The notes below the pieces were generated by a model. It did no database searches. It worked only from the letters and a program-made list of their open reading frames with translations, and was not told the DNA's origin. From Isoetes taiwanensis (Eukaryota; Streptophyta; Lycopodiopsida; Isoetales; Isoetaceae): a stretch of DNA of 64,000 bases. Where the stretch lies: contig JAJEKV010000002.1 of NCBI GenBank assembly GCA_021234155.1, forward strand, positions 41,963,203-42,027,202. Reading direction: 5' to 3'. A program made the translations under genes and the position numbers. Of the stretch, positions 317 through 59,861 are shown one piece after another (within the stretch, counting starts at the first letter, position 1; every line of letters starts with the position of its first letter).

Positions 317-3300
317 TCACCGTAGTGGTCCCATCATCGGTAACAAGCGCATCACGACCATACTAGCGTGGGTGGCATCACGTGAATTAATCTTAACTAC
401 ACAAGAATTAACCACAAATCGACATGCACGAGCCGATTTCTTCGGAGATGACCTTGCCGTCCCCATTGCTCCATAAATTGTGGATACTGCTTGCTTTACT
501 AAATCTTTCTTAAGTACCCGTCGCGTCTTCCAGCGGTAAGTGTTTCCACTTGACCAAATCTTGGAGGAGGTCACGATCTCCCTCGTTTTCTTGAAAGCTT
601 TATCAAGAATCAATTACGGAACTATCTCCGGTACTCCTCAGTCATTTTCCAACAGCGTTAGCGAATCAAGACTTCGTCTGGATTTGGGGTATGCTTCTTC
701 AACAAACTCGTGGAACACCTTATGAATCTTTAGGTGTCTTGCCAAATCTAGCTTGTAGGATTGATTACCTACTCTCTTGACCGACTGATTACGAAGGTCC
801 AGCCCACCTTGGGCAAGCTTCTTGCAATTGCCGATCTGAGCTTTGCACCTTCACCTTGATCTTGAGCCAAACATCATCTCCAACTTTGAACTCTCTTCTT
901 TGTTGGATAGCGGCGGCGATGCTCTTTTGCGACTTCTTCTTTTGCTAGCGGTCTACCCTCGAACTTCTTCCACAGGCTGCTGGCATATCGGCCAACATCT
1001 GGCTGCCCAGAAACTTCCACTTTTGACAGGGGGTTGTGCCAAAATTATGCAGGTTAAACAGCGATAGCCATAATTGATCATAAGCGGCGACATTTGGGAT
1101 GATTCACGCTTGGTGCTATTGTATGCAAACTCCACCAAGTGAATAAATTCTTCCCATACTTTGCTTATTCCGGACATAGTTTAGTAGCATGTCCTCTAAA
1201 ATCCTGTTGGTCCGCTCCGTTAAAAGCCATCCGTGCGAGGATGATATCACGGAGTGCTCATGGATAACCGATGGAATTAGTCAAAGGGTCTTGCCAAAAG
1301 GCTCATGAACGGATCCCTATGGAGATGATCTCCCTTGGCATGCCATGAAGCACGAAGATCTCTTTTGGTGAAGAGCTTTCTTTGTATCCATAGGCTGTAT
1401 CGTGGTTACGCAAAGGCACAAAATGTGCCATCTTAGACAACTTATGGAACCACTACCATCAAGGCATCCTTGCCTCTCGGCCCCATTCTTGAGTCCACGT
1501 GATAAAATCCATCTTTGATTACCTCCCACTTGGCGTTTGGCACGCTAATGGCTCTAATGCCCACGGAATTGAAGGCTGCTCGCCTTTGTGCTGGCGGCAT
1601 AGGTGACATTCCTTGATGTAGCGAGCTATTTGCTTCTTCATTCTGGCCAATAATAGGCTGCTTTGCGTTTTTGAAATATGTTTTCATGAATCGCGTGGCG
1701 GCTATTGAAACATTTATTGCGTGTCATGGAGGATCAACTTCCTTACACACGATGATTGAGTCGCAGCACAACTTGTTCTTATGGTATAGCAGGTTGCCTT
1801 CCTTCTTATAATGCTTGAAGGCCTCCCGCTCTTTATCTGTTCTAGCCTCCTTGAAAGGCTTGCCCATACTTCCACAGAAATCCACATCCATGGCAAGGAC
1901 TCTTCAATCCTCTTACCAAAAGTCATTTGGAAGCGTCGAAATTGCATTGCAATGCACTCTAGTTGTCGGGGGGATGCCTTGAAAGCATCTCTGCTACCAC
2001 ATTGAGCTTCCGGCTTGTAGACTATATCAAAGTCATATTCTTCAAGGAACTCCATCCATCTCCCGTTTGCCTCAGATTAAGGTGTGGTTCGCGTGAATAC
2101 ATATTGGAGGCTCACGATGGTGGTATCAATTGGAACTTCCTTCCCAAGAGATAATGCCTCCATATTCTTAATGCGCGACAACCCTTAAGCAACTCGATGC
2201 GTGCGTTGGGTAGCGTCGTCTCGGCGTCGTTCATCTTCACGGAATCATCCGCTACCACCGCTCTTCTTGCATAAGCCGCTTTTTGTAGCTATCTTACTGC
2301 ATCTGTTGCTACAAACTTATCTTTCTCGGGTCCGGCGAGTTAAAGGCGATGTTGTTAAAGCTTCCTTCAACAATTCAAACCCCTTTTGGGCTTTCTTGTG
2401 CCAATGCTCTGCAATCTTTCACCTTCTGCGCCCCGTCGGATGCGTTAGCGGGGCTGCTATCTTAACAAAGTTCTTCACGAACTTCACAGTACCACCGCTG
2501 GGCCGAAACCGACTTCATGCACATTCTTGGTCTTGGACCCTTTGAATAATGGCTTCAATCTTGGCGAAGTGCTGTTGAGATGCCTTCTGGCGAGATCACA
2601 TGACCTAGATACTCCACCTTTTTTGTTTCGCGAAGTGGCGCCGACAACTTGGCGTCCTTGGGTGCCTCTTCAACTTCTCTAGCACTCTTCTCAAGTGTTG
2701 TGCGTGCTCTTCAAGGGATGCGCTATACACCAAAATGTCGTCAAAGAAAACAATCACAAAGGTGTCGGGGAACTCCACGAAGATATCGTTCATGAGCCTC
2801 ATGAGCGTTGCGGAAGGCATTTGATGAGCGAAAGGCATTACGTGAACTCATAATGCCCATACTGCCCAGCGTTACGGCGGTCTTATGGATATCTTCTTCC
2901 TTTATCGTCATTGATAACGACCTTAAGTCGATTTTGGAAGATCTTTGCACCTTGGAGCTGATCCATCAAGTCGTCGATCTTGGGCGCATACTTGTTCTTA
3001 ATGGTGTGCTTATTCAGCGTCTATAGTCTATGCATCCTCAAAGATCCATCCTTCTTCTTGACAAAAGAATGGGCTCCAAGCGGGCGAGACACTAGGTCTA
3101 ATGAAACCTAGGTCGGCGACTCCTAGCGCTTCTTCAGCTCCAGACAACTCTGCGTTGTCATTCTATATGGAGCCTTGCTTGTTGGCTTTGTTCCTGGTTC
3201 GAGTGCAATCTAGCACTCAACTCCCCTATAAGGAGGGAGCTGCTTGATCTCATCACGGAAAGAGATCATGGAACTCCGTGTCGGCTTAGCTACTTGCCCG

Positions 3301-3760
3301 GCAACTTCTTTGAGCACCTTGTCTTCTTTGCTTCCTTCCCGATTCGGCTCACTAATCTCAAGCTTGAAGATGTATGCCACTTGCTCACTCTTGATGCACT
3401 TGAGCAGTGGTTTGGAAGACATACCTTTGCATGATGGGAACAACTTCCTTACACATTATCTCAATGATCTTGCCGTCGGGCGTTGGGAAGGTCACCTTCC
3501 CGCTTTCCGCGGTCGATAATGGCCCTTTGTCCAAAGGTACTCCATTCCTATGATCAAGTCATACTTTCCAATGCCCATTACTTCTGCCCCCATCTGGATA
3601 TTAATCCACGGCAAAGTCGATGTCGAAGTTAATTCTCTTGCCATGCCAGTGCGCCTTCTTGCACCACTTGCTAAAACAACGGGTCTTGGCTTTGACTTTG
3701 GCGGCTTCAACTTCAACATTTGAACCATTAAGGGGATGCAAAGTTATGGCTACTTCACGA
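317..3760 (-). pseudogene. Decayed pol of element 1 (protease, RT, RNase H, integrase, chromodomain remnant)
   Basis: Read on the minus strand from high to low coordinates. Protease C-terminal half lies at 3,492-3,728 (DLIIGMEYL). The protease-RT linker is at 3,210-3,443. RT lies at 2,605-3,200 with the active-site block FFDDILVYS. The RNase H end is near 1,900-2,055. Integrase core pieces are at 953-1,690 (VEFAYNSTK, MINYGYRC). A post-integrase/chromodomain trace is at about 317-640. Frames change repeatedly and the coding strand carries many stops. Pieces align one by one with the more intact pol of element 2. Nothing here could be functional. Confidence 0.85.
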
Positions 3761-3799
3761 GTCTATCAAGACTATGAAGGACTTAGCTTTAGCCTTCCC

Positions 3800-5190
3800 T
3801 ACTGTGGAAATTACCCTATCTTGGCTCTCTTTTGCTCTGTATCTATTGCGGCAAAGATGTGACACTCACCACGGATGTAGTCGCGGGCCTCTTCGCCGTC
3901 GTCGTCCCGTGAGGCGTCCCAATCTCCCAACTCCGCTAGAGCTGCACTCATGGCGTAGGGGACAGTTTGCTGTCCTATGGCCCGTTTGGAAGCACACAGG
4001 CTTTTGTTTTTCTATGCACTCCTGCCTCTTTTCCTTGGGCATCGGCTTGCAAAAGGATTACCTTTGCTTTGGAGTAGTTTGACCTCTCACCGCTTGTCCT
4101 TGAAGGACACACTTCTTCTCTCTCTTTGCTTCCTGGTTCCCCACCATATGGGGCTCTAAATTTGGACCTGAATTTTAGTTGCCACAGGGGCTATAGCTTC
4201 TGTCGCCTTGCCTTTATCACGGAAGTCTCTTGCTGCTTGTGCCCGCTATTACGAGGTCCTGAACCCCGCAAGCTTATAGCCTTGGATTCCACTTCGATCT
4301 TGTCCTAGGGTTTATTGCCCTCACAAGCTTGCGGATCTCCTCATTCAGCCCCTCAATATAGCTTTCTACTGCATGCTTCTCTCCCAACCTCGGCACATAC
4401 AGCCTTAGCCTCATGAATTCCTCTGTATATTTCTGAACTGATTTGTTGCCTTGCTGCAACCTGTAAAAGCTGCATCATCTTTGGACTTATGTTCCCTCGG
4501 AACGTAATGGCGCTTGAAGGCTTTAGCAAACTTTTACGAACTTACAAGCATCCCTGCTTAAGCCATGTGCCTTTGCATAACCCTTCCACCAAATCCGGCG
4601 GCTCCTTTCAAGTTGGCTGTTGCAACTTCGCCTTTGTCCTTATCCTTCATGCCATAAGCATTTCCATTACTTTCGCTCATCTCGTCCACCATGCCTCTGC
4701 TTCCAATCGACTGTTCTCCCCGAGAAGCTGTTCGAGTTCAGGCCTTCCATACATTGCCGGTCTTGGAATCCACCTTCTTCTTACGGTAGTCGAGGGCCAC
4801 GGTATCTCTTTATCGTCCCTGCACGGGGTGTTCCTCTGCCCTTCCATACATTGGATTTCACGAACTGTTCTTCCCTCTTCCTCAGTCAGTCGAGTCTGAA
4901 CTTGAGTCCGGAAGATTCGGATTGGGGATCTCCTTCTCTTGCTCCTCTTCTTGTCCCTTCCTTCCCTCAGAGCTGATGCTTTGCGACAGGCCCGAGCATT
5001 GCCCACCAGAACCCCCCTCCACTTGCCTTGAGACGGTAATGCCTTTATCGCTCCAGTCCGTCCTCATCATGGGCTATCTCCTCCTCCTCTGGGGTCATGG
5101 GTTCCCTATCTTCAAATAGGTTTCTTGCGGGGGTGGTGCAGGCGGGGTTTGTTCTTCTATAAGGTCTCCAGTTGTGGATTCCCCTAGCGT
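3800..5190 (-). pseudogene. Decayed gag of element 1
   Basis: The capsid C-terminal motif is visible at 4,274-4,459 on the minus strand (QQGNKSVQKYTEEFMRLR and YIEGLNEEIRKLV), the usual Ty3/gypsy retrotransposon gag pattern. Upstream, 4,677-5,190 encodes a charged N-terminal region rich in Glu and Pro (EEQTPPAPPP). No clean zinc knuckle can be read because of frameshifts around 3,900-4,200. Gag would form the particle that packages element RNA; this copy is dead. The start codon cannot be fixed. Confidence 0.7.
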
Positions 5191-5517
5191 TTAGGCCTCT
5201 GTTTGCATACACAAGCAATTCATGGCTATATGATTAGTTCCATTTGTTCTTCTTGCATTGTTTATGTTTGTTGGTATAATTGTGGGGCAAACTACATCAA
5301 CAAAACATTTAAAAGTGCAGCGAATTATATTTATATATCATATAATATTTTAAATACAAAAAGTCTCAGGGATCAAGAGTCTAACTAGTCTTGAAATCGC
5401 CGGTAAGGCGGGTTGTCTTCAAGAAACTTCTTAACTTGGGCGTCCCTACCGGAGTGACCCAAGTTCTGATGATGCTTGCGGCGAGCCTCCACGGATGGCT
5501 CTCACCGGGTCTTCTAC
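5191..5517. other. AT-rich spacer between gag and ORF b of element 1
   Basis: About 200 bp (5,200-5,390) is strongly AT-rich, with ATATTTATATATCATATAAT-type sequence, then GC-rich sequence resumes. It separates the extra genes from gag and could hold an untranslated region or promoter for gag, but no specific site can be defended. Confidence 0.4.
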
Positions 5518-6878
5518 CTAGCGGTCGGATGTAAGGGCGCGATCCTTTATAATCTCGCGGCGTGTCGGTGGGGGATGGCGAAGTCGAAGAGGTCGAGTGC
5601 CATTGACCTCTTGACTAAAACGACATAGTCGACATTTGTTGCTATTCGAGCATGCTGCGCGAAGCCTGAGAGTGCAATCGGCATAAATACTCCTTCTTAG
5701 CCTCACGGGACTGAACTTGCGGTGAATTACCGCTATTCTTCCATCCATCGGCCCGCGGCAAGTAGTATCTGCGACCTATCCGTTGTGTGTCGCCGAAGCT
5801 TCTCCCGCTTGTTTGGCCTCCAGCTCTGAGCCTTGGCGTGCTCGTCGACCTCAACCCGGTGCAAGCTCCTGTAGTCTTCAATTGTCGGGTCGAGCCTCAG
5901 GTCGATTCCTTCTCCTTTTTGGCGGGGTGATATCGAAGGACCGGCATTAGGATGCTCGTGGTCTTCCACGGATCCCCATCTGTTCTTGGAGGGCGAGGAA
6001 CTCCTCCTCTGTTGGCGACTCCGGCTTCGTCCATCAATTGCCTGATCTTTGTAGGCACGGATGTCAGGTCGTCTCCCCGTGTAGGTGTCGGACTCCCTCA
6101 CTTGGCGGGAAGTCGAGGCTCCCGGGCGATGAAGTCGTCCATGTCGGTCCGCGGTGGTGGAGCGGTTAGGTCAACTTTGAGCTCCCTCTCCCCGTGGGAA
6201 GGTTACGGATGTCGCTGAGGTAGATACTCCTCTCCGTCGATGATGATAGGGGCTAGGCTTGTGATGCCTAGCCGGTGGAGAGCAACTCGATGCCACTGGC
6301 TCTGCTCGCGAAATTGATCAGCTCTTGCTCTCTCCTTGGCGTGTTCTTCGCGCGAGTCGAGCTCCGTGTATCCTTCCGTCGTCCGGCTCCTCTTCATCCT
6401 CTCTTGCTTCCTGTTCCTGTTGATACTGCAACAGCATCTGCTCTTCCTCTTGCTCTGCTATGGGGTCCACCTCCATCGGAGGATAGAGGTTACCCCATCG
6501 GGTTCTCCGGCGATGGGATAAGAAGATGGCTAGGGCGGCGGTGTAAGAGAAGTACTTGGTCCTGTTGGCTGTCAGGACCATGTAATCAGGTAGTCTCTGC
6601 GCCTTGTTAGTCAAGTACTTGGCGATGTTGGGGACATCGCCCAAGGCTGCTTGAAGGGATGGGCGGGGAACAAAGTATCCTATGCAAGGGGGGACTTGAA
6701 CAAGGGAGGGTCCTACCCTAGCTTGAAATTCTGCTAGCACCTGCCTATAAGCTGGGGTTGCATTTAGCGTAGCTTGGATGTTGATTTCTTTCACAAAGAC
6801 TTGGAAGATGTTGTTGACATCTGCCTCAGTAGCATGGGCACTGGCGCTGTACCATCGCCCAAAATCAGTAGTAGCCAT
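5518..6878 (-). pseudogene. ORF b of element 1: unknown protein encoded upstream of gag
   Basis: The start is the ATG at 6,878, chosen because it follows a TATA box (6,993-7,000) by about 115 nt and opens the longest frame (MATTDFGRWYSASAHATEAD). The first 186 codons are open to 6,318. A frame change near 6,390 leads into 6,203-6,397 (DSREEHAKERARADQF), then further broken Arg/Ser- and Glu/Arg-rich pieces to 5,518. The N-terminal block has a compact hydrophobic segment (LPDYMVLTANRTKYFSYTAA) followed by an acidic and Gln-rich stretch. The same block is recognisable in ORF b' of element 2 (LGD/LGG, then a helix ending ALAI), so it is a family trait. I recognise no known domain. Confidence 0.6.
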
Positions 6879-6992
6879 TGATCTAGCAAAGAAGGGAGTA
6901 TCAAACGGATGCAGAAGCGCCTCAGGGAGCTGAAAGATCGCCTAAGCAGTGGGGAGCAAATTTGCAGGGTGCCAATTTAGAAATGGGGGACT

Positions 6993-7177: not shown

Positions 7178-7246
7178 GGTCTCACACGTTGCGCCCAGCC
7201 CGATTTCTAAAATGTAGAAATCACTGTCTGGCGGACGTTATGAGAC
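7178..7246. repeat. Hairpin motif copy 1 (promoter of ORF b)
   Basis: One of four related copies. Ends are inverted (GGTCTCACACGTT and a GACGTTATGAGAC-type arm) around a core TTTCTAAAATGTAGAAAT that is itself a near-palindrome. It lies about 180 bp upstream of the TATA box of ORF b. Confidence 0.7.
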
Positions 7247-7377
7247 ATAGGTCCCTAATTGGGCTAGGATTACTCAATTTAGGTGATCTAAGGCTGTAAT
7301 TCCACTAAACTCATCGAGTTAGGCAGAATTGACCCCTTACTTGGTCGATTTGGAGCTGTTTTGGGCATTTTGGGCAT

Positions 7378-7442
7378 GGTCTCACGTTGCGCCCGGCCCG
7401 ATTTCTAAAATGTAGAAATGTCACGGCGGCGGCGTGTGAGAC
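7378..7442. repeat. Hairpin motif copy 2 (promoter of ORF b)
   Basis: Starts GGTCTCACGTTGCGCC and ends GGCGGCGTGTGAGAC, so the outer arms pair. The inner core TTTCTAAAATGTAGAAAT is identical to copy 1. It lies 200 bp from copy 1, between the end of the H3-like unit and the promoter of ORF b. Confidence 0.7.
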
Positions 7443-7609
7443 ATCGTCTCAATTTTGCTCAAAACTCCAATTTAATTAAAACGAAGGCTAGGGATCGATA
7501 TCTTGACCTATTTAAGCGAGGGTTTGACACTTTATTTACACAAAATTTTCTTTATATTAACAAAATTTTCCGATTATTTACAAGGTTCAAGGCGTTCTCC
7601 CTTGATGTG

Positions 7610-8870
7610 CACAGCAAGATACATATCACACGCCTCATGAGGGTAACCCTCTTGGCGTGCACCGTGCAGGCCGTTGAGTCTTCAAAATGCTTAACTATAT
7701 GCGCTTGACGCCGCCTCTTGTAAACCAAACAGACATCTCATCGGTCCGCGCGCGTATGCGTGTTGTATTCTTGGATGACTTCCAGCGGACCAAAGCGGGA
7801 ACGGCCCGGGGAATCAGTCCAGAACTCTTACCGAAGTGGCGGATCTCCTTGAGTGCCCCAATCTTCCAACTTCTTCTTCTTGTTCCGCTTCTTCCACGGT
7901 GCTCGGGGAGGCTTGGGCTTTGGTGGAGGGGCTTGATTGCACGGCTCTTCGTCGGTGTCCGCCTTCAATCGTTCTCACCGGTGCTCCTGGTAATAGGCAT
8001 TGTAGGCCTCCCACTTTACCATATCTCAGCGTTGTGCTCCCGATCCTCTTCCGATAGACCTTTGGGGGTCTATCACATATGCTTCCGTTTCTTGGTAGTG
8101 GGGTCTTGACCCTATCCCACGTCCCGAAATGGTGGGGAGCCGCCGCCACTGCCCGACCTCCTCGTTCTTGGGCCGTCTGCTCACGGGACCTCTTCCTCTG
8201 ACCCGGGGGGCTTTGAAGAGCTTGCCCGTCTGCGCCCGACTTACGTAGTCTCCATCCGGTCGTCGGTGGTGTGGGCGGGTCTCCCCTCCCGATGGCTCGT
8301 TGATGGCGAGGCCCTCCGCCCTTCTTCCCAGCCTTTACCAGCTTCCTCTTGCACGCGCTACGGCTTTGGCCCTCCTCTTCTTGGGTCCATTTGGCTGTCG
8401 TGGTCGTCTTCCGACTCTTTGTCCTCTGCTCCGTGGCTTTTGACTTGCCACCCCGTATTTGTGAGCGAAATCGCGGTCTGCCTCTTCTTCTTCGGGGTGG
8501 TTCGGTGTTGCTTTGCTCTTCTCTTCCCTGCTCCTCCTGCGGTGGATCTCCTTTGGGGTTGTTCTTGGGCTGTTGATGGGTCCGCTTTGTTCCCTCTGCT
8601 CCTCACGTGGGTTGGCGTCCCCCTGGTGTTGCTCTTTGCTGCCCGTTTCACGCCTCTGCCGTGCAATTTAAATCGAGGATCTCGTTCATGGCGTGCGTAG
8701 GTCGTCCTCCAAGATTTACGTGTGGTGGCTCGGTCCGACCACCCCCTCACTTGAAAGATTCAGCCGGTGGAAGCGTTCACCAGAAGAATCACGTGAAAGA
8801 GGGAGCGGGCGGCGGCTGGAGGATCCGCTTGGCTAGGCGTCCTTGCGATGCGCCCGTCGCGGGCCATCAT
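7610..8870 (-). pseudogene. Histone H3-like gene carried by element 1 (frameshifted)
   Basis: The proposed start is at 8,870 (ATG ATG GCC; MMARDGRIARTPS), 102 nt after a TATA box. A long basic tail follows: 8,358-8,750 is Lys/Arg-rich, and 7,861-7,920 encodes KPKPPRAPWKKRNKKKK. A frameshift at about 7,857 leads into the H3 fold: ALKEIRHFGKSSGLIPRA matches the H3 alphaN segment (ALREIRKYQKSTELLIRKL). Then come LQEAASSAY (alpha2, H3 LQEAAEAY) and, after another shift, FEDSTACTVHAKRVTLMRR (H3 [19 protein letters not shown]) ending near 7,630. Order and spacing match H3. The tail is much longer than the about 40 residues of a normal H3. LMRR resembles centromeric H3 variants, but the fold is too damaged to decide. 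Several frameshifts make it a pseudogene. Confidence 0.75.
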
Positions 8871-8971: not shown

Positions 8972-8979
8972 TATTTATA
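8972..8979 (-). promoter_or_regulatory. TATA box of the H3-like unit (element 1)
   Basis: TATAAATA on the minus strand in the context CTATAAATAG, about 102 nt before the proposed ATG. Two hairpin motif copies lie 75-330 bp further upstream, the same order as at ORF b. Confidence 0.5.
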
Positions 8980-9055
8980 GGGCCAATTTTAGGTCAACTT
9001 TTAAACTACCTTTTTTGGGTTGTCTAGAGCACCTAAAAACACCCTAATTAAGCAA

Positions 9056-9120
9056 GGTCTCACCGCGTTGCGCCCAGCCCGATTCTAGAATCTAGAAACA
9101 CATCTGGCGGCGTATGAGCC
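9056..9120. repeat. Hairpin motif copy 3 (promoter of the H3-like unit)
   Basis: Begins GGTCTCACCGCGTTGCGCC and ends GGCGGCGTATGAGCC. The core ATTCTAGAATCTAGAAA contains TTCTAGAA, a TTCnnGAA inverted pair like a minimal heat-shock element. It is paired with copy 4. Confidence 0.7.
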
Positions 9121-9238
9121 ATGGTGGGGCCCACTATTAAATTAACATGTAACATGCTAAATCTACTAATTCTTAGCTTAAATTTAGAATTATCAAGGTA
9201 TTTTCTTGTAATTTACAACTTTTTTTTGGTGTCAAAGT

Positions 9239-9308
9239 TGAATGTCTGCATACGTTAAACCCGATTTCTAGAATGTAGAAATCTGTCACGGCGGCGACGT
9301 GTGAGACC
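9239..9308. repeat. Hairpin motif copy 4 (promoter of the H3-like unit)
   Basis: The right arm GGCGGCGACGTGTGAGACC is well preserved and the left arm is diverged. The core TTTCTAGAATGTAGAAAT again contains TTCTAGAA. It lies about 185 bp from copy 3, compared with 200 bp between copies 1 and 2. Confidence 0.65.
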
Positions 9309-9489: not shown

Positions 9490-9507
9490 GAACATAGCTC
9501 GATACCC
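9490..9507 (-). other. Degraded primer binding site of element 1
   Basis: Immediately inside the LTR on the minus strand, GGTATCGAGCTATG resembles the plant initiator-Met site TGGTATCAGAGC with a small deletion. Its position 3 nt from the LTR end, upstream of the H3-like unit and not next to gag, shows that the extra genes lie inside the element. Confidence 0.6.
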
Positions 9508-9509
9508 TT

Positions 9510-11177
9510 TGTGGCGTCCCCTACTGTGTTATCACGGTGCACTCACCGGTATACAAGCGAAGTTCATCCCCATACCAGCTCCATGCTAATACAGGGGCCC
9601 TCCACACGACACTTGCAGTGGCGGGTTCCGGTGGGAAGAGTGGAAGGGTCATTGCACCCGTCTCCCTCGGGGCCTACCTAGGCTGCGGGCGTAAACGCCA
9701 CATGTCGCTTAGCACATACATCAACATCACATGACCATCACAAAGGATGGTCCTCCACATATCTGCATAGACAAAGATCAGCACATCACATAGGGGAATC
9801 CTACCCAAGGCTCGGACTCAAGGGATGACCCGGCGGCTTGGGTCTCGAGTTCATTGCGGGCGAAATTCATGGCAATGGATTTGGGCGGCATATGAGCATG
9901 GCTTAGGGTTGTCCACTCCATCCGCCCCTCCACATTGCACTTTGCGAGTGGTGCGAAAAAGTGTCGGGACCCCGACCGTAGCCAGCGGGATGCATAGCCA
10001 AGAGGGCTACTCACGGGCTCATCTTCCCAGTTCGATGGGGCGGTAGGGATCACTCCCTCGAGAGATCTACATCTTGACTCAAGGTGGCTAGAGGGCCCAC
10101 TTTGCCCGTGTTCGGATCGAACCCAGGGAAGGTGAACACCACCCCACGGGTGTCGAGCCCATGCCTTGCCCGCACGCAGTGGCAAGCCATTGGACCTAGC
10201 CACAATGGTTCCCGGTAGGCCTTACACACCAGAGGAACCGTTCATGAGTCAGGACATGAATCTCCTTCTCAGCCAGTCTGGCCCCTTCACCCACATCCCG
10301 GTGTGGCTCTTGTGCCGCCGGGCGAATCTGGTGTGCTAGAGAGGCTACTCTAGGAGCATCAACTACAAAGCTTTAGGTCTCTACCCCCCTTCCCAATACA
10401 AGGAGTTCATAGAGATACATCATCCATATACTTCACAGAGAACTAAAGAACTAAATCTAATCTACAACATAGAGTTAGGTGCTTTAGTTAGAATCTACTA
10501 TCTATAGATCTAGAGGGCTGCTATGGGCAATTCAATAGGCTAAACCTACTGATTCTAGGACCAAAATGAGGTTTAGACTATCTAATTGGCCAAATACCTG
10601 ATCCTTGAGGGGCTCCTCCTGACCTGAGCTCGACCATCCTGTTGAAACGCTCGAATCTAGAGAAACTAAGGATGCAATTCTCCCAGGCAGAGTCTGGGAT
10701 GCGGTTTTGGCTGTTGAGGCAGCCAAAACAGAGTTCTGAAGCCCTAAAATCGAAAATTGGGCTAGTTAGGGTTTCCTACCCTATATAGACAAGGGGGTTG
10801 GTTAGGGTTTCCAATTATCCCCTTTTGGCATGTGGGATAATTGGAAATGGGCCCACTTGCCTTTAAGGGCTAGGTGGCCAAATGTGCACACATGGAAATG
10901 TGTGCCCACATTAATGTGTACATTGGAAAATGTGCACATTAATTGCACCTATGGGTGTGGCCCACTTGGCATGAAGTGTCCACTTGGAAATGTGTGCTCA
11001 CATTAATGTGTATATTGGAAAATGTGCACATTAATAGTTGCACATATTTCTGGCAAGTTGCCCCCTAGGGCTACCCACGGCTACGCTAGCCCATTACCGC
11101 CACCGGAGTGGGTGGGTACGCGCGCGTGGCAACGATGCGGTATAGATCCGGGGTATCTTTGTCTTTGAAGCGTCCTG
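9510..11177 (-). mobile_element. 5' LTR of element 1
   Basis: About 1.67 kb. The plus-strand left end TGTGGCGTCCCC corresponds to TGTGACGCTCCC at the left end of the element 2 LTR (27,803). Internal blocks are shared; for example the string agggttgtccact and the following ccgcccctcc occur in both (near 9,906 and 28,225). The right end is placed by matching the distal end of the element 2 LTR (ggaacgtcaca against gaagcgtcctga), so it is uncertain by a few bases. Near 10,880-11,040 there are repeated AATGTGTACATTGGAAAATG-type motifs. Confidence 0.75.
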
Positions 11178-13815: not shown

Positions 13816-13849
13816 TTCTTCTTGATGTCCTTGAGAAATATTGATGTTC

Positions 13850-14060
13850 TTGACTGAATGTGGTGACTGTAATGAATGTGGTGAATGTGGTGACAGTGAT
13901 GAATGTGGTGAATGTGATGACAGTGATGAATGTGGTGACTGTGGTGAATTTGATGACAGTGATGAATGTGGTGACTGTGGTGAATGTGGTGACGGTAGTG
14001 AATGCGGTGTAGGTGATGACTGTGGTGAATGTGGTGATTGTGGTGACTATGATGAATATG
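13850..14060 (-). repeat. Minisatellite encoding a Ser/Pro/His linker between protease and RT
   Basis: About 200 bp of TCACCACATTCACCACAGTC-type repeats on the minus strand, units of 9 to 12 bp. In the RT frame it reads SPHSPQSPHSS and similar, running directly into the RT ORF, with one in-frame TAG near its start. The plus-strand Cys/Gly/Glu-rich ORF is its shadow. Motifs of the same composition occur in the LTR at about 17,230-17,335. Confidence 0.75.
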
Positions 14061-14077
14061 GACTGATATGATTTACC

Positions 14078-19333: not shown

Positions 19334-19660
19334 CTACGTGCGATGGAGATCGTGATCTTGGTGCTTTGGGGACCTAGACACGGATGCGTAAACTCTTTCT
19401 GGAGAACCTGAAGACTTCCTGCGAGGAGATCTATCCCTCTTTCTTCTGGGCAATGGCGATCTTCTGGGTGATGGGGATCTCGATTTCCTTGGCGACAAAG
19501 ACCTGCTTCTGCCACGCCCACTAGACCTATGTTTCTGTTTCGGCGAAGCAGACCTTTTTGAACTATCCGATCTTGGACTTCTTGAATGCCTCTTAACAGA
19601 CCTTAGATTCTCTGGCGGCGATGTGGTTTTTTTCGGCGACACGATCCGTGCCGATCCCGG
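19334..19660 (-). pseudogene. SR-type splicing protein C-terminal fragment
   Basis: Minus strand, about 105 codons of RS dipeptide-rich sequence (VKRHSRSPRSDSSKRSASPK, then RSLSPRKSRSPSPRRSPLPR) ending at a stop at 19,334. This is the typical RS domain of plant SR or SR-related splicing factors; no RRM is present. Sequence upstream on the same strand looks like a promoter and 5' region (see 19,700-19,960), so the fragment seems to join a gene start to a distant RS exon. It lies inside the putative CACTA element. Confidence 0.65.
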
Positions 19661-19699
19661 GCATCTTTGCAATCTGCTTTGGTTCCCAAACACCAAGGG

Positions 19700-34978: not shown

Positions 34979-35713
34979 TCAACTACATGCTTTGCAAGCA
35001 TTGACAATACACCACGTCCTAGAGAACACGAGGGTGATCTCATCATCGGTAACTATTATTAACCACAATCCATCTACCCCTCTACTGCATGATTCTCGGC
35101 GAATCAAGCCTTGAAGATTACCGCCGGGTGCGGGGTTGATAGCATCGTTGATGGTGCGGCCCTGAGATTCCCGCATGAAGTCCGGATAGTGCTTCTCAAG
35201 GTCTATCTTCATCACCCACGTAGCATCCTCAACTGGCAAGTGTTTCCACTTAACCAAGTATTGCAGCATTTGACTCCTTCTGGTCTGCTTATAGGCGCGA
35301 TCAAGAAGAGCTTCAGGCACTATATCTAGATGCTCTTCTGTCATTTCAAGAAGGGTGGGTGTATCCAAGACCTCCTTTGGATCGGGGGTGTGTTGTTTCA
35401 GAAGACTCACGTGAAAGACCTTGTGGATCTTCAAGCGGGGTGGCAAATCCAAGCGATATGCATGTTCACCTATACGTTCTATAATTTTGAACGGCCCAGC
35501 CCATCTGGGTGCCAGCTTCTTGCAGTTACCAATCTTAAGCTTGGCTTGCTTTACTTTAATCTTGAGCCAAACTGATTCACCCACCTGGAAGAGACGTGGG
35601 GTTCTGTGCTTATCCACGACACTCTTCTGACGACTGCGTGCAGCCAATAAGTATGCATGAAATTCTTCAACCAAAGCTTGCATTTCCAAGAGGAGCTGTT
35701 GAGAAACCTCCAC
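34979..35713 (-). CDS. Integrase C-terminal domain and chromodomain of element 2
   Basis: About 244 codons in a frame shifted from the integrase core. The first part holds the GPY/F-type module (LAPRWAGPFKIIERIGEHAY). At about residues 125-185 a chromodomain is clear (YLVKWKHLPVEDATW, with aromatic and Trp positions kept). In chromoviruses this domain reads histone marks and steers integration into heterochromatin. The last about 60 codons have no recognised domain and may run past the original stop. Confidence 0.85.
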   Translation of the reverse strand: MEVSQQLLLEMQALVEEFHAYLLAARSRQKSVVDKHRTPRLFQVGESVWLKIKVKQAKLKIGNCKKLAPRWAGPFKIIERIGEHAYRLDLPPRLKIHKVFHVSLLKQHTPDPKEVLDTPTLLEMTEEHLDIVPEALLDRAYKQTRRSQMLQYLVKWKHLPVEDATWVMKIDLEKHYPDFMRESQGRTINDAINPAPGGNLQGLIRRESCSRGVDGLWLIIVTDDEITLVFSRTWCIVNACKACS

Positions 35714-36430
35714 CTTAGAAAGGGATTATGCCATGTGTCCGGAGTAAGGCATTGATAACCATAATTAATCATGAAGGGAGACATTCTAGAAGACTCCTGT
35801 TTCGTACTGTTGTAGGCAAATTCGACCAAATAAATATAGTCAGCCCATTGTGATTGCTTACTCCATACATAACTTCGTAGCATATCCTCTATAATGCGAT
35901 TGGTACGCTCTGTCTGACCATCCGTCTGGGGATGATATGCCGTACTCATAGCAAGCTTGGTTTGAATGGTGGCAAAGAAATCTTTCCAGAATGCACTTAC
36001 GAATTTGGGATCCCTGCCGGATACAATAACCCGGGGCATTCCATGCAATCTGAAGATCTCCTTTGTAAACAGCAAAGCGGTATCGAAGGCTGTATCCGTG
36101 GTACGACATGGCAAGAAATGAGCCATTTTGGACAATTTGTTGACCACTACCATCAATGCATCATATCCACGGAGAGTACGTGGAAGGCCCACAATGAAAT
36201 CCATGGTTATCACTTCCCACTTAGCGTTGGGCACATCCAGAGGTTGCAACTCTCCTGGAATCCTTAATTGCTCAGCTTTGGTTTGTTGACACACCTGACA
36301 CTGCTTAATATACTTGGCAATGTCCTTCTTTATAGACGGCCAAAAATAACTGGAGCGGATCTTAAAATAGGTCTTCATAAAACCTGCATGTCCAGCTATA
36401 GGGCTGTTGTGCGTATCATGGAGAATAAGT
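35714..36430 (-). pseudogene. Integrase zinc finger and catalytic core of element 2, with a missing catalytic Asp
   Basis: Frame open from about 36,430 to 35,551. H-H part: LILHDTHNSPIAGHAGF; C-C part: CQVCQQTKAE. The core begins WEVITMDFIVGLP (first Asp). The second Asp position reads VSGRDPKF instead of the usual VSDRDPKF, so a catalytic residue is lost. The Glu region YHPQTDGQTERTN is intact. A frameshift near 35,720 separates it from the C-terminal domain. This copy could not integrate by itself. Confidence 0.85.
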
Positions 36431-36439
36431 TTACGTACT

Positions 36440-36735
36440 CCTGTAGTTTACAAGAAGTATTCCATTGCCAAAATGAGTTCAGTTTCGTTGCTTTCTCCAG
36501 CCTCTTTACCTTTACCCTCTGTTAGTAGCTTTTGCTCTTAAGTTCACAACACACACTATTAATACTCAACAATCTTCTGTTGTTGTAGCTGTACCATAGT
36601 CCAATTCTTTATTCTTTTTAGTTGCTCGCTTGCCTATTTATTCCTGGGACAGAAATCGCCCGAAAGCATCAGTTGTATATGAAAGTGGATGTATTCTTCA
36701 AACTGTACATATTTCCACAATGGAATTTCATGTCT
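36440..36735. mobile_element. Small (about 290 bp) MITE-like insertion in element 2 pol
   Basis: Between the RNase H-integrase linker (KLWLTRET) and VRKLILHDT there are about 290 bp of non-coding sequence that element 1 lacks at the same place (its KATCYTIRTSC and VRKLILHDT are nearly adjacent). Tips are weakly inverted (ATTCCATTGCCAAAAT and ATTCCATTGTGGAAAT). Boundaries are approximate. Confidence 0.55.
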
Positions 36736-45023: not shown

Positions 45024-45624
45024 ACCAACAACTTAAAGGGCATTTTAACCAAACGCCTACAAGAATTACATGTTCCTCTTAGAGAGCACAATTGTAGAAA
45101 ATGGAGGATTCAGGCTTGCATCTGCAAAAGTCGAAAGGTAAGAAAAAAAAATACACTCTGTGAAAGGTAACTAGATTTAAAAATAGAAGGAAGAAGGAAT
45201 TTGAAGAATGCAAGAAACATGACATACGAGAGTTACTGTTCCTCTTATTGAACACCACTGTAGAAAATGGAGGATTCGAGTAAATGTATGAGCCCAGCTT
45301 GCGTCTATAATAGTAAAGCTTCTCGTTAATGATTTCTTACCGATCTACTTAGGATCTTGCAAGAAAATGCCTTATTCAAGCAGTGGTAAGTGGCGAATCC
45401 ATGAGTTAGGATCCCTCAATTCGTAGAAATGGAGGCGAACCACTAGATTTGAGCCTAAGAACCTGAGGCTAATTCAAGAAAGGCGGGAGGAAAAATTGTC
45501 GAAAAGTTGGCGACCTAATAGAAAAATATTTTCAATAGTAGCCTACTCAAGTTTCGTATAACATTTACTAAAATGTTCACAATATAGCCATTGGGCTAAA
45601 ATTCGCCCCTTAAGGGCAACCCTG
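45024..45624. other. hAT right end region without a gene
   Basis: Includes a short duplication: CACAATTGTAGAAAATGGAGGATTC at about 45,090 and CACTGTAGAAAATGGAGGATTC at about 45,257. AGTTGGCGA near 45,503 is a subterminal motif also present twice at the left end. Confidence 0.5.
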
Positions 45625-45632
45625 GTGACAAC
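45625..45632. repeat. Target site duplication of the hAT element, right
   Basis: GTGACAAC, identical to 36,958-36,965. It lies inside the codons for ...DALS of the element 2 RNase H end. Confidence 0.9.
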
Positions 45633-47095
45633 GCATCCGCAACCACATTGTGTTTCCCAGGCTTATACATAATCTCAAAATCATACTCCTCGAGAAACTC
45701 CATCCATCTCCTTTGACGGAGGTTGAGATTCGGCTGGGTTGATAGATAACGGAGACTCTGATGATCTGTATCCAGCTGAAATCTTCTACCAAGAAGGTAG
45801 TGTCTCCATATACGCAGAGCGCGGACAACAGCCAACAACTCCTGATCATGGGTAGGGTATCGCTGTTCTGTCTCATTCATTTTCTTTGAATCATAGGCAA
45901 TAACCCTCCCCTCCTGCATTAGGACTCCCCCGGTAGCAATCTTACTGGCATCCATTGCTACTAGTTTATCCTTTTCGGGGTCAGGCAATGTGAGGACTGG
46001 TGCGGACGTTAGAGCATCCTTAAGCTTCTGAAAACTTGCCTGGACTTTTGTTTTCCAATGCTCAATCCAATCCTTCACTTTCTCATGCTTTGTAAGATCG
46101 GTAAGAGGTGCTGCAATCTTTGCAAAATCCTTAACAAACTTACGGTAATATCCTGCCAATCCCAAGAAGCTTCGGACCTCTGAGACATTACCTGGAATAG
46201 GCCAATCCTTGACTGCCTCTATCTTTGCTGGGTCTGTGGCAATTCCCTCTGCTGAAATGACATGTCCCAAATAGTCCACCTTCGGAGTGGCAAACTTGCA
46301 CTTAGAGAACTTGGCAAAGAGCTGGTGACGTCTTAGCTTTTGTAGGGCCAAGCGAAGATATTTCTCATGCTCCTCCAAGGTCTTACTATAGATGAGAATG
46401 TCATCAAAGAAAATAACAACAAAATCATCCAAGTATTGGCGGAAGACATCATTCATTAACCGCATAAAGGTTGCGGGGGCATTCGTTAATCCAAAAGGCA
46501 TAACGGTAAACTCATAATGCCCATATCTAGTGCGAAAAGCAGATTTATGGATGTCCTCCTCTTTAATTCGTATCTGATGATATCCGGAGCGTAAATCAAT
46601 CTTTGAGAAGTACTTGGCCCCTTGCAGCTGGTCCATAAGATCGTCTGCCCTAGGCAAAGCATAGCGATTCTTGATCGTATGCTTGTTGAGCTGCCGATAG
46701 TCAATACACATTCTTAAGGAGCCATCCTTCTTCTTAACAAAAAGGATAGGAGCGCCAAAAGGCGAAACACTAGGACGAATAAACCCTAGGTTTAGTAACT
46801 CCTGAAGTTGCTTCTTAAGCTCTGCCAATTCAGGGGGACGCATACGGTACGGGGCCTTACTGGTAGGCTTAGTACCTGGTTCCAAAGCTATCTCACATTC
46901 TACTCCTCTAAATGGAGGTAGTTTCTGGATCTCGTCTGGAAAGAGATCGCTAAATTCCCTAAGAAGATCAGCAACGCCCTTTGGCAAGGCATCAACTACT
47001 TGCTTTTGCTTAGCATCTGACTCAATGGAGGCAAGTCTGATGACACAAAGTAGCGTATCCTTGCGTATAGCCTTATTTAACTGCCTGATGGACAT
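45633..47095 (-). CDS. Reverse transcriptase and RNase H of element 2
   Basis: About 487 codons before the hAT breaks the frame. [60 protein letters not shown] and active site [10 protein letters not shown]. RNase [16 protein letters not shown] (first Asp), [12 protein letters not shown] (Glu) and [10 protein letters not shown] (Asp), so all three catalytic positions are visible. These motifs are of chromovirus type and uninterrupted, so this part decayed little before the hAT arrived. Confidence 0.95.
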
Positions 47096-47098
47096 AGA

Positions 47099-47675: not shown

Positions 47676-48820
47676 CTAACATGCCTTATCTGTGCAGGAG
47701 CTGCTCTCGGGCCTCTTTAGGAATAGATCATGAAGAGGTTCGAACTTCCCTACCGACATTGTTCGGTTTAGTCGGGCATGTTGAAGGTGACTTTCTTTTC
47801 TGGCCCAGTAAGAGTTCTGCTTGAGGGGCCCGGGGACTTGGTGAAACGGGGGCTTGTAAAAGGTGTGTGCTGGGGCCGGGGCTAAGAATAAAGAGGCGGG
47901 GATCTTTGAAATGCGGTTTCTTGGTGTGTCCTCTTCCAGGCTCAATGCCTTAGCCTCGACCTCTGCAAATGATTTGGTCTATGGCCTTAACCATTCGTTT
48001 AATTGATGGGGCCAACCCTTCAATATAGCCCTCCACCGCCCTCTTTTCATTCATACACTGGTACATACACCTCAAAGCATGAATTCATCATGTAGGCCTG
48101 AACCGACATACCCTTATGCTCTAACCTATAAAAGTCTGAATCTGGCGGCATTTTGTGCGCGGGGCACGTAATGCGACTTAAAAGCTTTGGCAAACTTTTG
48201 AACTTGCATCCGCCTTACGTCCGGATGCTTGGCTCTAGCATAGCCCTTCCACCAAATCTGGCGGCTCCGGTAAGGTTTGTGGTGGCAACTTTTCACAAAT
48301 ATCTTTCTCCGTCATGCCATAGGATTTCCCAAACTCCTTCATCTCGTCCAACCAGGACTCTCGCATTCAAACCGCCTCTAGATTTCCCATCAAACTGGGC
48401 CAATTTCCTGTTTTTCCATATACTAGTTATGGCCGTATCAACCGTCTTACGGTACTCCTTGTCCCGGCGCTTTGCATGGTCACCAGATGACATAGACGAC
48501 TCCGAGGACAGAGAAGTGGCTGATGGTGAGGATGTAAGCTATCCCGAACGAGCCGGCGATGTTTGGAATGGTGCCTCCTTTGGCGGAGTGCGGGGCACGG
48601 TTACGAGTGCGGTGGGCGGGCGTGGTGGTGGGCTTGGCGGTAATGGAGGTAACTCCGGTCCGTCCTCTTGCATATGGTGTGGTGGGTTGGCATTTAACAC
48701 ATAAGCCTGGAGCTCTACTAACTGCCGCTTCATCAACATGAGTTCTTGCTCCGGTGTTAATCTGCTGGCATTCGAGGGTGTCTGCCATGAGGCGTTACGT
48801 GCACCGTCTATATTGACCAT
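47676..48820 (-). pseudogene. Gag of element 2 (frameshifted)
   Basis: The likely start is at 48,820 (MVNIDGARNASWQ). The N-terminal region includes a coiled-coil-like stretch (LTPEQELMLMKRQLVELQAY) and a Pro-rich segment. The capsid middle (48,060-48,480) is shattered into frames. The C-terminal piece 47,676-47,945 has the basic tail before the protease. No intact CCHC knuckle is read. Confidence 0.7.
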
Positions 48821-49778: not shown

Positions 49779-51070
49779 CTAAGAACTAGATTCCTCCTCG
49801 TCGTCCATAGGCTGAGGAGGTGGTCGGTAGCGCATCAAAGTGGTGCTGGGGTTAGCGGAGAGGGCGGCTCGAGCTGCTGCCTCCGGTGGTAAACAAGTGG
49901 CCAAGGGTGCCGCCACAAGGAGTCGCATACTTGCACAGCCCGCCACGTCCCCCAACGCTACGATAGCCAAATCTCGTCGGACCAAGGTAATGGTGGTGGC
50001 GTGATAGTCAATCTTCTTATGGCCCGCCAAGGTGGATATCGCACGAAGTGCCCACCAAGATGCTTCAGAAGAAGGCCCCAAGTTCTTGGAGAAGAACAGG
50101 ACCTCTCCTTGCCAGAAAGCTGAAAGGAAGAATCGGGTCACATAGTTGCCCATTGCCCTAATTTGGGGACCCCTGGAGGTCTCCGCTTCCTTTTCCAAGT
50201 TAACGGGGATCTTCTCCTGCTCTGCTTCTTCTTTGTCGTCCTTAAGACTTACCTTGGTGTTCCAAAAGTCTTCCTCCTCTTCATCCACCCCTCCCATGGT
50301 GATCTGCAATGGCTGGTCGGTAGGAGGAGGCCTCACGTGAGCCGCAAACTGCTCCTCTGGAGGCTGGGGGGTATCAGTCAGTAAGAACTGCCGAAGGGAC
50401 AAAAGGGTCTCAACGGGCTCTAGCTCTTCTGGCCGATATACCAACAATTTCTCGACTTGTGGGGGATGCACAACCGATGTGGTAAAGTCGAGAAAGTCAT
50501 CCTGGCAGTACTCGGCAAGATCATAGAGGACCTCTATCTTTTTGCGGCCCCGCATATCAGCAATAACGCGGTAGGCCCACATAATGTCCTCTAGAATCAG
50601 GTACTCTTGGTTGTTCAAGAGTACGGTTGGAAGGAGGTTTAGCCCTTCGAGCTTGAGGGCTTTCTCTCGGCTTGCCGGGGCTTCGGTGGCGAGTTCCCTC
50701 CACCTTACAAAATCCTGCTCGTCGACGACCTCATGAGTCTTCGGGTCGAGGAGGCGGGTGTAGAGCGATTGCTTTCGGCCGCTATCTGCTCATCTTCAAT
50801 ATCTTGGTCCATAATGATGGCCAGTGCAAATCGGGCCTCAAAACAGACTTCCCGATCTATAGTAACAATGGGGAGGTCGGTTCCTCTTCTCCTTATGCCC
50901 TTGATGACATTCCGGGCATGCTCATCACCTCCTAACATCTCAAGCAAAGTGTGGAAGTCGAGGTAGAGCTGTGAATCGTCTTCACCTGCATGTTAGAGAC
51001 GAGGTCCACTTGCTGGAAGCGGAATGGGATGAAGAACATCAAAGGAACCAAGGGTCCCAGTGCTCTCCAT
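49779..51070 (-). pseudogene. ORF b' of element 2: homologue of ORF b, unknown function
   Basis: The proposed start ATG at 51,070 lies 60 nt after a TATA-like box. It needs two frame changes: near 50,980 (into GEDDSQLYLDFHTLLEML) and near 50,760. From about 50,690 to 49,779 the frame is open for about 300 codons (ILEDIMWAYRVIADMRGRKK at about 50,600, an acidic segment VDEEEEDFWNTKV, and an acidic end DDEEESSS). The block LGGDEHARNVIKGIRRRGTD, with the helix FEARFALAII after it, aligns with LGDVPNIAKYLTNKAQRLPD and TAALAIF in ORF b of element 1, so the two are homologous. The C-terminal 90 residues have a faint H2A-like pattern (see findings). No firm domain. Confidence 0.6.
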
Positions 51071-51132: not shown

Positions 51133-51309
51133 CTTTTTGGCACGTTTTCCTAGGTTATTTAAAAAAAATTATTATTTACTTAATAATTTACAATTAAATA
51201 TACACCAAGTGGCAGAATTAGACATTTTTATATTCACAGGTTCACAAAAAGAATATTGTACATAGATAGATCTACAAAATTGTACAACAGAATAAAGTAG
51301 GTCGCATAA

Positions 51310-51516
51310 TCACCGAAACTCCCCTCGAATCCTCCTTGCAAAATTTGGAGGTCCTTGGGCATTATGGTAACCCTCTTTGCATGGATGGCCTTGAGAGGTT
51401 GGCGTCACTCAAAATTTCTATAAGGTAAGCCTCGGCTGCCTCCTGGAGTGCGAGGATAGCAAAGGCCTGAAACCTCAGGTCGGTCTTAAATTCTTGGGCA
51501 ATCTCTCGCACAAGGC
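51310..51516 (-). pseudogene. Histone H3 C-terminal fold carried by element 2 (5'-truncated, frameshifted)
   Basis: Minus strand: [18 protein letters not shown] then [20 protein letters not shown] match H3 alpha1 and alpha2 almost residue for residue. After a shift [15 protein letters not shown] gives L2 and alpha3; after a second shift ARRIRGEFR ends at a stop (51,310), where plant H3 ends RRIRGERA. No intron. IMPKD is the canonical rather than centromeric form. The N-terminal tail is lost because element 2 is cut at 51,520. It lies upstream of ORF b', exactly where element 1 carries its H3-like unit. Confidence 0.9.
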
Positions 51517-51520
51517 ACCC

Positions 51521-53536
51521 AAAATTAAAACACTACATGGTTTTTCCCTTGGTTGTGACTACAAAACCATTTTACAAAACCAATACATGTTTGTGGGTTG
51601 ATATCATTAAAAACCATATGAGGCTAAACTAATGGGTTCTTTTGTAAGGTTTGTTAGGGCGGTGTTATGGTATGGCAATTGCTAATGGTTTCCTTTGTAG
51701 AGTTTGTCAAAGTGGTATAGCATGTTGGTAAATTTATGTGGTATATTATAGTGTTTTAAGGGTATGGTTAGTCCCTATGGTATAACACGATGGTGTGGAT
51801 GTGGTTTAATATGCTGCTCTATTCATGTGATTCTATAGTGTGGTTGGTTATTGTGGTGAACTAGCATGGCTAATTGTCATGGTAAATGCATATGGTTCAC
51901 AATGTGTTAGATTCAAATTACTATTACTATTAGTAATAGTTAATTCCAAATGTGCATGGTTTGGTTATGCCTTATCTTCGTGGTTATCATTTATAAACCA
52001 GTGATGATAACCAGTAACACTTTGTTGTTTAAATCATTTCAACAACCAGTAACACTTTGTTGTTTAAACCACTTCAACTTTATTCAACAATCATTTCAAC
52101 AACCAGTAACACTTTGTTGTTGTTTAAACCATTTCAACTTTATTCAACTAAAATCTATTACGAAGTAACGTTTTGTTGTTTAAAGCATTTCAATAGTATT
52201 TAACAAACTATTAAAGAATTGCGTATTGTTGTACTTATTACGTCCATGTCAATATGTATGCTTTCAGGAGTAAGGGGATTTGAACCCCAACCATTTCCAT
52301 AACTCATAAACAAAGATAAATCTATTTTCAAAAATACTTACAAAACAAATTCAGATAAAAACATCTTATAGAAAGACCAACCTTGCACTTGTAAGTACCT
52401 AAATATCAAAACAAATTAAGATAGAAATGTCTTAAAGAAAGAAAGTATTGACTTTGCACTTGTATTTAAGTACATAAATAACAGAAACATAATGCAGCTT
52501 AAACCAATCACCTCTACTTCCGTCCGGTGATGCAATAAAGTATGAAAAGATAACTTCTTACTTTAAGGTCTATAAAGGCTCCTGTAAATTGTACCAAGAT
52601 CTGACATATAAAAGCATATAAACACACACCTATGGTAGGTGGGAAAATGGAGGCATGATAATAACGGGCACAATGGAAAAGCAGCACTAAAACCTATTAT
52701 ATATGTTAAAAGATCAATTTATATGTTGCATGCAAGCTTTGTTAACCCACATGATATAAATGTGTAGTGCAACATACCTATGTTTTTGGTGCTCATGAAT
52801 ATAAATCTGTATTCAGAGCCCGTCATCCCTGTATTTTGAGACCACATAAACAGCAAAGCCACAAAGAACCTTGATTCAAAGAACCATAATTGAAAGCAAA
52901 CTTGTGTGACCAGATTTTCAGATATTGCAGAACCCATTGCAACATCTTTTTCTTTGAACAATATGCAGCATGTTCAAAAGGAGCCTTCAATAACTTGTCG
53001 AAATTCTAAACCTGCTATCTTACCATATCTGCAATCAACCAAGACCAGGATCTTCTAAGTTGGTCACTATAAGCAAGGTCTCTATGGGTTCCGATTAAAA
53101 TAGTAAGGATGGGGCAGTGGTCACCAAAAGCCTGATTGGTCACCAAGCATGGTCATGCTGTGTGCACGCCACTGCAGAGGACAGTTTGTCTTCATTTCAT
53201 TTCCGTTCCTTTCAGCACCTCACATTGCTTCAGCATTTCCACCCTTGCATTCCCCACATAAATTAAAGAGAAGAAATATACAAGCAGCAGCAGCAGCAGC
53301 TATCTTAGAGGTGAGACTTATCTAGAGGTGAGACTTATCGCCCTTATAGCCATTTGCAGAAAAAACATTGCTGGATCTGCTCCATTGATTTCGTCTCCAG
53401 CACAGTAGATGCCAAAAATTGCAGAGGGCCTCCTGTGTAGCAGATTCTTTAGAGCTAACTTACAATGAAGAGAGGAATAGAGTAGCAGAGGCTAAGTTAC
53501 CTTCGTAATAGAGGTTGCCAGTCCCAACTCCAGCTC
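51521..53536. other. AT-rich DNA with tandem repeats, no recognised gene
   Basis: 51,532 starts CACTACATGGTTTTTCCC, like a CACTA end, but no partner end is found. 51,650-51,950 is rich in ATGGT repeats. 51,980-52,215 holds three to four copies of AACACTTTGTTGTTTAAACC with TTCAACTTTATTCAAC. A tRNA-like GGATTTGAACCCC lies at 52,279. (AGC)5 at about 53,284 and a 17-bp duplication TAGAGGTGAGACTTATC at 53,307-53,340 follow. Confidence 0.5.
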
Positions 53537-59860: not shown

Positions 59861-59861
59861 A

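Follow-up and report, generated by a model that had tools for sequence, protein, structure and literature searches.

Does a plant LTR retrotransposon encode a core histone of its own, and what might such a protein do for it? The question is raised by a stretch of 64,000 nucleotides of the Isoetes taiwanensis genome (hereafter the window), in which an earlier note, made from the letters and open reading frames alone, had reported a histone H3-like gene at 7610..8870 of the minus strand, inside a chromovirus. We refer to this chromovirus as element 1. It extends beyond the left edge of the window, and we identified the following parts of it.

9510..11084, minus strand: 5' LTR, 5' edge approximate (blastn to L031, L033 and L036; LTR defined in copies A and B)
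9497..9507, minus strand: degenerate primer-binding site (sequence; the site of copy A, TGGTATCAGAGC, is exact)
9260..9307, minus strand: inverted-repeat module upstream of H3, copy 1, 67 bp in relatives (repeat comparison)
9052..9125, minus strand: inverted-repeat module upstream of H3, copy 2 (repeat comparison)
8972..8979, minus strand: TATA box (TATAAATA), ~110 nt ahead of the H3 start
7574..8867, minus strand: H3 gene, decayed (ATG at 8867 and TAA at 7576-7574 in the window copy)
7589..7859, minus strand: histone H3 fold part of that gene (tblastn; PDB match; alignment to a relative)
7374..7447, minus strand: inverted-repeat module upstream of ORF2, copy 1 (repeat comparison)
7178..7248, minus strand: inverted-repeat module upstream of ORF2, copy 2 (repeat comparison)
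5386..6941, minus strand: ORF2, decayed, 3' end approximate (ORF 6318-6941; relatives L034:5703-7199 and L036:3825-4892)
4000..5233, minus strand: gag, decayed, edges approximate (Retrotrans_gag on 4274-4474; relatives)
1990..3865, minus strand: protease, reverse transcriptase (RT) and RNase H, decayed (RVT_1 on 2605-2847; similarity to element 2)
317..1954, minus strand: integrase and chromodomain region, decayed (blastn to the element 2 integrase)

The LTR ends in GCCACA at 9510. A search of the window for TGGTATCAGAGC at up to 2 mismatches missed the primer site, and the piece at 317-613 gave no Pfam match and no chromodomain; the relative L037 does have a Pfam match. Gag runs from window position ~5.2 kb downward, where the earlier note had placed it.

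A tblastn search of the 64-kb window with a canonical plant H3 recovered the reported place as pieces at 7961-7592 of the minus strand, in several frames, with a summed E of 3e-7 and a best piece of 37 bits. The best score in a control of 50 shuffled windows was 23.1 bits (mononucleotide shuffles, searched at the default word size instead of 2). The C-terminal piece matched PDB H3 chains at E 1e-4 and scored 19.1 bits against the Pfam Histone profile, under the cut-off of 26.4, and the piece containing ALKEIRHF (7695-7964) found no Pfam family and no histone among the PDB sequences. By themselves, the window pieces are thus weak evidence for a histone. The gene is identified as H3 because an uninterrupted relative in the same genome scores 97.4 bits against that profile, and the protein of this relative aligns to the window gene over residues 14-418 at E 3e-44. 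The profile search and the search for intact relatives, both proposed in the earlier note, hence gave a sub-threshold window piece, an open relative well recognized as a histone, and uninterrupted H3 copies in the host genome with H3 within an LTR pair; together with tblastn, the relatives bear out an H3-like gene inside a chromovirus at this place. The window copy was also correctly described as frameshifted, as it has 75% DNA identity to a natural open relative from which, in one alignment, it differs by 34 indels, 33 of them frame-shifting, and 3 in-frame stops. The Lys/Arg/Pro-rich stretch that had been taken for the extended tail is present just before the fold, but it is not the whole tail, as the N-terminal part of relatives comprises ~337 residues (L031).

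The searched assembly comprises 1,658,258,908 bases in 1110 contigs. With the window H3 piece as query, at least 150 matches were found (those scored of 1741 candidates, a few being one place in two frames). When the 427-aa protein of L031 was used instead, 98 of 13955 candidates were scored; at least 65 of the 98 are full length, that is, they run from query residue 5 or earlier through 418 or later, and at least 44 of the 65 are free of stops. An open frame beginning at MARTKQ reaches into the end of the fold in 21 of the 30 best loci (including L066, which shifts frame near the end); 7 are partly open and 2 were missed by the start motif used.

In the open loci the protein has 411-439 residues from its start. 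The open frames of L031-L035 begin with MARTKQT(A/T/V)RKP, continue for ~300 residues and end in a gap-free H3 fold; L036 is open only downstream of the tail. The tail start is ARTKQTARK in 19 of the 21 MARTKQ-starting loci and ARTKQTTRK in the other 2, so that K4 and K9 are present, and the residue after K9 is proline instead of the serine (Ser10) of canonical H3. A short continuous tail with a K27/K36 region joined to the fold is absent, with ~300 residues of unrelated sequence lying between. In L031 this linker is acidic at residues 21-150 (net -20), and a stretch of 37 residues just ahead of the fold is basic (net +7). No database relative of the linker (residues 30-335) was found at E 0.001 among 3366 candidates. 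A search with the whole protein scored 7951 candidates and gave 2388 matches, of which the best 120 are 32-53% identical and span 24-53% of the query; both searches are sensitive solely to relatives with short exact shared words.

The fold scored 97.4 and 94.5 bits against Pfam Histone in the two proteins tested, and a PDB search gave 175 distinct sequences with E values up to 1e-5, the strongest match being at 2e-28 and gap-free over 88 residues. It is identical to canonical H3 at 52 of 96 positions (54%), and the nearest database proteins are divergent H3 and CENH3-like sequences, mostly unnamed, at up to 64% identity. Residues R69, R72, R83, H113, K115, R116, T118 and D123, which we take to be DNA-contact and H3-H3 positions of H3, are retained in the alignment. 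Assembly and modification may nevertheless differ from those of canonical H3, since R63, K64, L65 and K79 are changed and Ser10 is replaced by proline. By most of the features tested, the protein would be classed as an H3 and its carrier as a chromovirus.

The placement of this gene within the element is clearest in two copies with LTR pairs. Copy A, ~13.1 kb long by arithmetic, is bounded by LTRs of ~1.57 kb that are 96.2% identical, have the ends TGTGAC...GTCACA and are flanked by a 5-bp target duplication, AATGC. Its primer site, TGGTATCAGAGC, matches at 12 of 12 positions one base past the 5' LTR, and a purine-rich tract precedes the 3' LTR. Between the LTRs lie, in order, H3, ORF2, gag, protease, RT/RNase H, integrase and chromodomain; RVT_1 (143 bits) and rve (40.9 bits) were recognized by Pfam, with the integrase after RT in the Ty3-type order, and a chromodomain stands at the end of the integrase frame (40.8 bits; cut-off 25.1). 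The H3 gene of copy A is itself damaged, with the tail out of frame with the rest. Copy B likewise has H3 between two LTRs, which align over 1.46 kb at 93.2% identity (ends and target duplication not established), and its 3' stretch is without any frame of 150 codons.

At all 30 further loci that were retrieved, one of which is the window's own, H3 is flanked identically by the leader before it and by the spacer and ORF2 after it. The TATAAATA box was found 108-110 nt ahead of the H3 start in 7 of 7 copies and 60-160 nt ahead in 21 of 21 open loci; the two sets share four copies, so the box is present in 24 of 24 distinct copies. The same box precedes ORF2 in 4 of the 5 copies that reach it, and a TATA box is found near the gag start in all 5. 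The ORF2 product is a protein family of ~500 aa common to both element types (L034:5703-7199; window 49779-50789), which matched no Pfam family and, in a PDB search, merely two entries at E 0.5.

Because 30 of 30 loci share the element flanks, chance capture or an unrelated nested insertion is excluded; an unrelated insertion with its own target duplication, which had been named as the finding that would overturn the H3 reading, is contradicted by these flanks together with the LTR and target-duplication evidence. The open copies, the LTR pairs of copies A and B and the shared flanks instead support the proposal that an H3 gene with a lengthened tail was taken up by this retroelement family, and we are highly confident that it is a real, selected gene of the element.

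Inverted-repeat modules of 67 bp, paired 199-200 bp apart, stand ahead of H3 and again ahead of ORF2 in copies A and L033, and may bear on regulation. In L036 they lie as follows:

2582-2648, 2782-2848, 4506-4572 and 4705-4771 of L036, reverse strand: 67-bp inverted-repeat modules (sequence comparison)

Selection was measured as pooled dN/dS (NG86) over the 210 pairs of the 21 open loci, copies chosen for similarity or openness whose pairs are not independent and in some of which dS exceeds 1 and is unreliable. The overall ratio is 0.144; it falls to 0.040 in the fold and 0.012 in residues 1-10 and rises to 0.180 in the linker, and the largest value for the fold in any single pair is 0.232. 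In pairs of the first six copies the fold gave 0.00-0.04 when L035 was left out and a looser 0.06-0.12 when it was included. For other parts of the element, dN/dS is 0.15-0.22 in RT (three of L031, L033, L034 and L036) and, in these four copies, 0.17-0.26 in ORF2, 0.14-0.40 in protease and 0.29-0.51 in gag. The histone parts are the most constrained of those measured, because the ratios of the tail start and the fold fall below those of RT, ORF2, protease and gag. These codon comparisons show that the tail start and the fold have been maintained across copies by purifying selection. As a separate observation, dS in H3 exceeds dS in RT for the same pairs (L031-L036).

The window contains a second element, related to the first and likewise on the minus strand.

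51309..51524, minus strand: element 2 H3 fold fragment, canonical-like, N-terminal part absent (tblastn; comparison with L069)
49779..50789, minus strand: element 2 ORF2 (BLASTP to ORF2 of the element 1 type, 26% over 290 aa, E 6e-12)
47978..48361, minus strand: element 2 gag core (similarity to element 1)
45596..47098, minus strand: element 2 RT and RNase H (Pfam)
34979..36447, minus strand: integrase and chromodomain, assigned to element 2 (Pfam Chromo 35.4 bits; H2C2)

The H3 fragment, missed in the earlier note, was detected by tblastn with canonical H3 at 51523-51342 of the minus strand (60.8 bits, 70-83% identity, E 7e-17). It lies 5' of ORF2, gag, protease and RT, and the last three have 66-72% DNA identity to those of element 1. 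We infer that the integrase and chromodomain at 34979..36447, ~8.7 kb from the RT part, belong to element 2, being on the same strand and kin of element 1. Neither an LTR nor a primer site of element 2 was found within the window.

A genome search with canonical H3 gave at least 150 places (those scored of 9022 candidates). In fifteen of these the match spans residues 1-136 at 96-98%, and we regard them as ordinary host H3 genes. At the remaining 135 places, similarity is mainly to residues 25-135, at 71-86%; an open frame of at least 400 codons, with no stop in the match, is present at 49 of these 135. One such copy, L069 (463 codons), has the presumed start MAITKSAPD... and no ARTKQTARK, followed by ~300 residues unlike the linker of the first type and then by a canonical-like fold (Pfam Histone 140.8 bits) with the end RRIRGEQP. 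The H3 of element 2 in the window is of this type (79-83% identity). Two of the 13 departures of one type-2 copy from canonical H3 are common to type 1, and in the tree type 2 joins plant H3 at a support of 75. An element-borne histone is also supported by another element type of this genome, deeply diverged from the first, which appears to carry its own long H3 fusion. In viral contigs, 9 stretches fit the search pattern, and no relative of the element 2 RT is encoded in any of them.

Several further features were observed in the window. An ORF rich in RS/SR repeats, resembling a fragment of a splicing factor, lies at 19334-19990 on the minus strand, and a similar start (EMNGLD...) is found in the vicinity of 54248-54538 on the same strand. 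There is a large tandem array of 19-bp periodicity at 21461-22972, an array of 9-bp periodicity within another gypsy element at 13828-14079, and a segment of ~1.7 kb (24538-26240) with a 72% match to its own reverse complement. A direct repeat of 781 bp (59858-60638 and 63220-64000, 97%) is possibly the LTR pair of a short element.

With its LTRs, iMet-type primer site, and gag, protease, RT, RNase H, integrase and chromodomain in the usual order, the first element resembles plant chromoviruses, and it differs from them in two added genes, the H3 variant and ORF2, between primer site and gag, each preceded by a TATA box. The word 'histone' is absent from the consulted part of a review on the additional ORFs of plant LTR elements (PMC7264820). 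Orchid Ty3/gypsy elements provide a parallel, as a plant family in which a cellular-type domain was captured and retained as an additional ORF, but theirs is an m6A (RNA) demethylase and not a histone or other chromatin building block (PMC9289625). Another parallel is found in DNA viruses (xenomavirus, DSLPV1, sylvanvirus and others), mobile genomes that carry H3 alone, with some tails lengthened; these H3s are 73-87% identical to an H3 of a possible host and have 35-68 extra residues where lengthened, and the main text of that paper does not use the word retrotransposon (PMC9145170). In contrast, the H3 described here is encoded by a retroelement with many genomic copies, its fold is 54% identical to canonical H3, and it has ~300 inserted residues.

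The fold also shares the motifs ALxEIRHFQK, LIPxAPF and TLM with plant CENH3 and animal CENP-A, and has 57% identity to a Quercus CENH3. Unlike these proteins, it keeps the canonical length of loop 1 and the ARTKQTARK tail start, and its C-terminus, HIKGERP, is canonical-like, with neither a longer loop 1 nor a CENH3-specific end. Because loop 1 has the canonical length and the C-terminus is canonical-like, the protein is not a CENH3 by those features; the trees give it no supported place with CENH3, with canonical H3 or elsewhere (long stem of 0.7, deep support of 14-42).

The earlier note had held that plant Ty3/gypsy elements are not generally known to encode core histones, and we found no contrary report in the open-access literature: a retroelement-encoded core histone is reported in none of the titles and abstract beginnings of open-access papers searched, a scope that excludes preprints and most subscription journals. 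The chromovirus with an H3 variant is thus a combination that we did not find reported.

We suggest that the element probably makes a nucleosomal H3 variant of its own, which would protect or mark chromatin for the element. The fold itself is predicted, with similar confidence, to work as a nucleosomal H3. The TATA box would drive the H3 gene, and the protein would pair with host H4 and enter nucleosomes, or nucleosome-like packages on element DNA, as a dominant variant. The long charged tail and the altered modification sites would thereby be placed where silencing or integration is decided, and expression or integration of the element would be aided. Escape from host silencing, or its steering, may be the benefit, a point on which we are less assured. 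The selection data are compatible with the earlier suggestion that the histone may shape chromatin, either on element DNA or at the target.

Alternatively, the N-terminus might act as a decoy. Histone mimics of viruses titrate or mislead host factors, and the ARTKQTARK start could do the same to the host enzymes that methylate H3 K4 and K9, or to readers or chaperones, with the fold as an anchor. Such a role would fit the strong conservation of the first ten residues, the highest of any stretch measured (0.012), the proline in place of serine after K9, and the ~300 aa between tail start and fold. It would not, however, require the whole fold to be so conserved (0.040), and the single type-2 copy read starts with MAITKSAPD... 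and is without ARTKQTARK; we consider the decoy role somewhat unlikely.

The protein might instead condense cDNA or the pre-integration complex, or mark chromatin for the integrase chromodomain and so choose integration sites. The integrase frame of copy A does end in a chromodomain above the Pfam cut-off, and the basic stretch ahead of the fold in L031 (net +7 over 37 residues) would suit a condensing protein. Compared by eye with HP1, this chromodomain seems to be without most of the methyl-lysine cage, and H3 has its own TATA box, separate from gag-pol, which argues against such a function; we regard it as unlikely.

Although the window copy is broken by many frameshifts, as a functionless passenger left by chance capture or by a nested host H3 pseudogene would be, that origin is very improbable given the same flanks at 30 of 30 loci, the 44 of 65 full-length places without stops, the strong selection and the conserved TATA box, and gene conversion from host H3 is disfavoured by the 54% identity to canonical H3. 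Nor do we give more credence to a host family of histone variants beside which elements inserted by chance, as the host does have H3 genes of its own, but these 15 canonical places are separate 136-residue matches at 96-98% to plant H3, and the H3 of copy A lies between LTRs with a target duplication.

Returning to the element-made nucleosomal variant, its broadest form is that two chromovirus lineages each express a dedicated H3 variant with a long new domain and build with it a chromatin specific to the element, through which silencing and integration would be evaded or redirected. We advance this tentatively and with some doubt. The occurrence of such genes also has a practical side, as gene counts and repeat masking in genomes with H3-bearing elements may be distorted. 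In the consulted part of its description, the annotation of the Isoetes taiwanensis genome aimed to drop plant-protein-like repeats from the repeat library (PMC8566536), and because such repeats were meant to leave the library, H3-bearing elements perhaps went unmasked. For the biology of transposons, the element would show that a transposon is able to carry, amplify and select its own chromatin component, and it would provide a natural test of the roles of the H3 tail and fold once released from host constraints. If the two-lineage proposal is true, element-encoded histones would constitute a third layer of the arms race between plants and transposons, beside small RNAs and DNA methylation.
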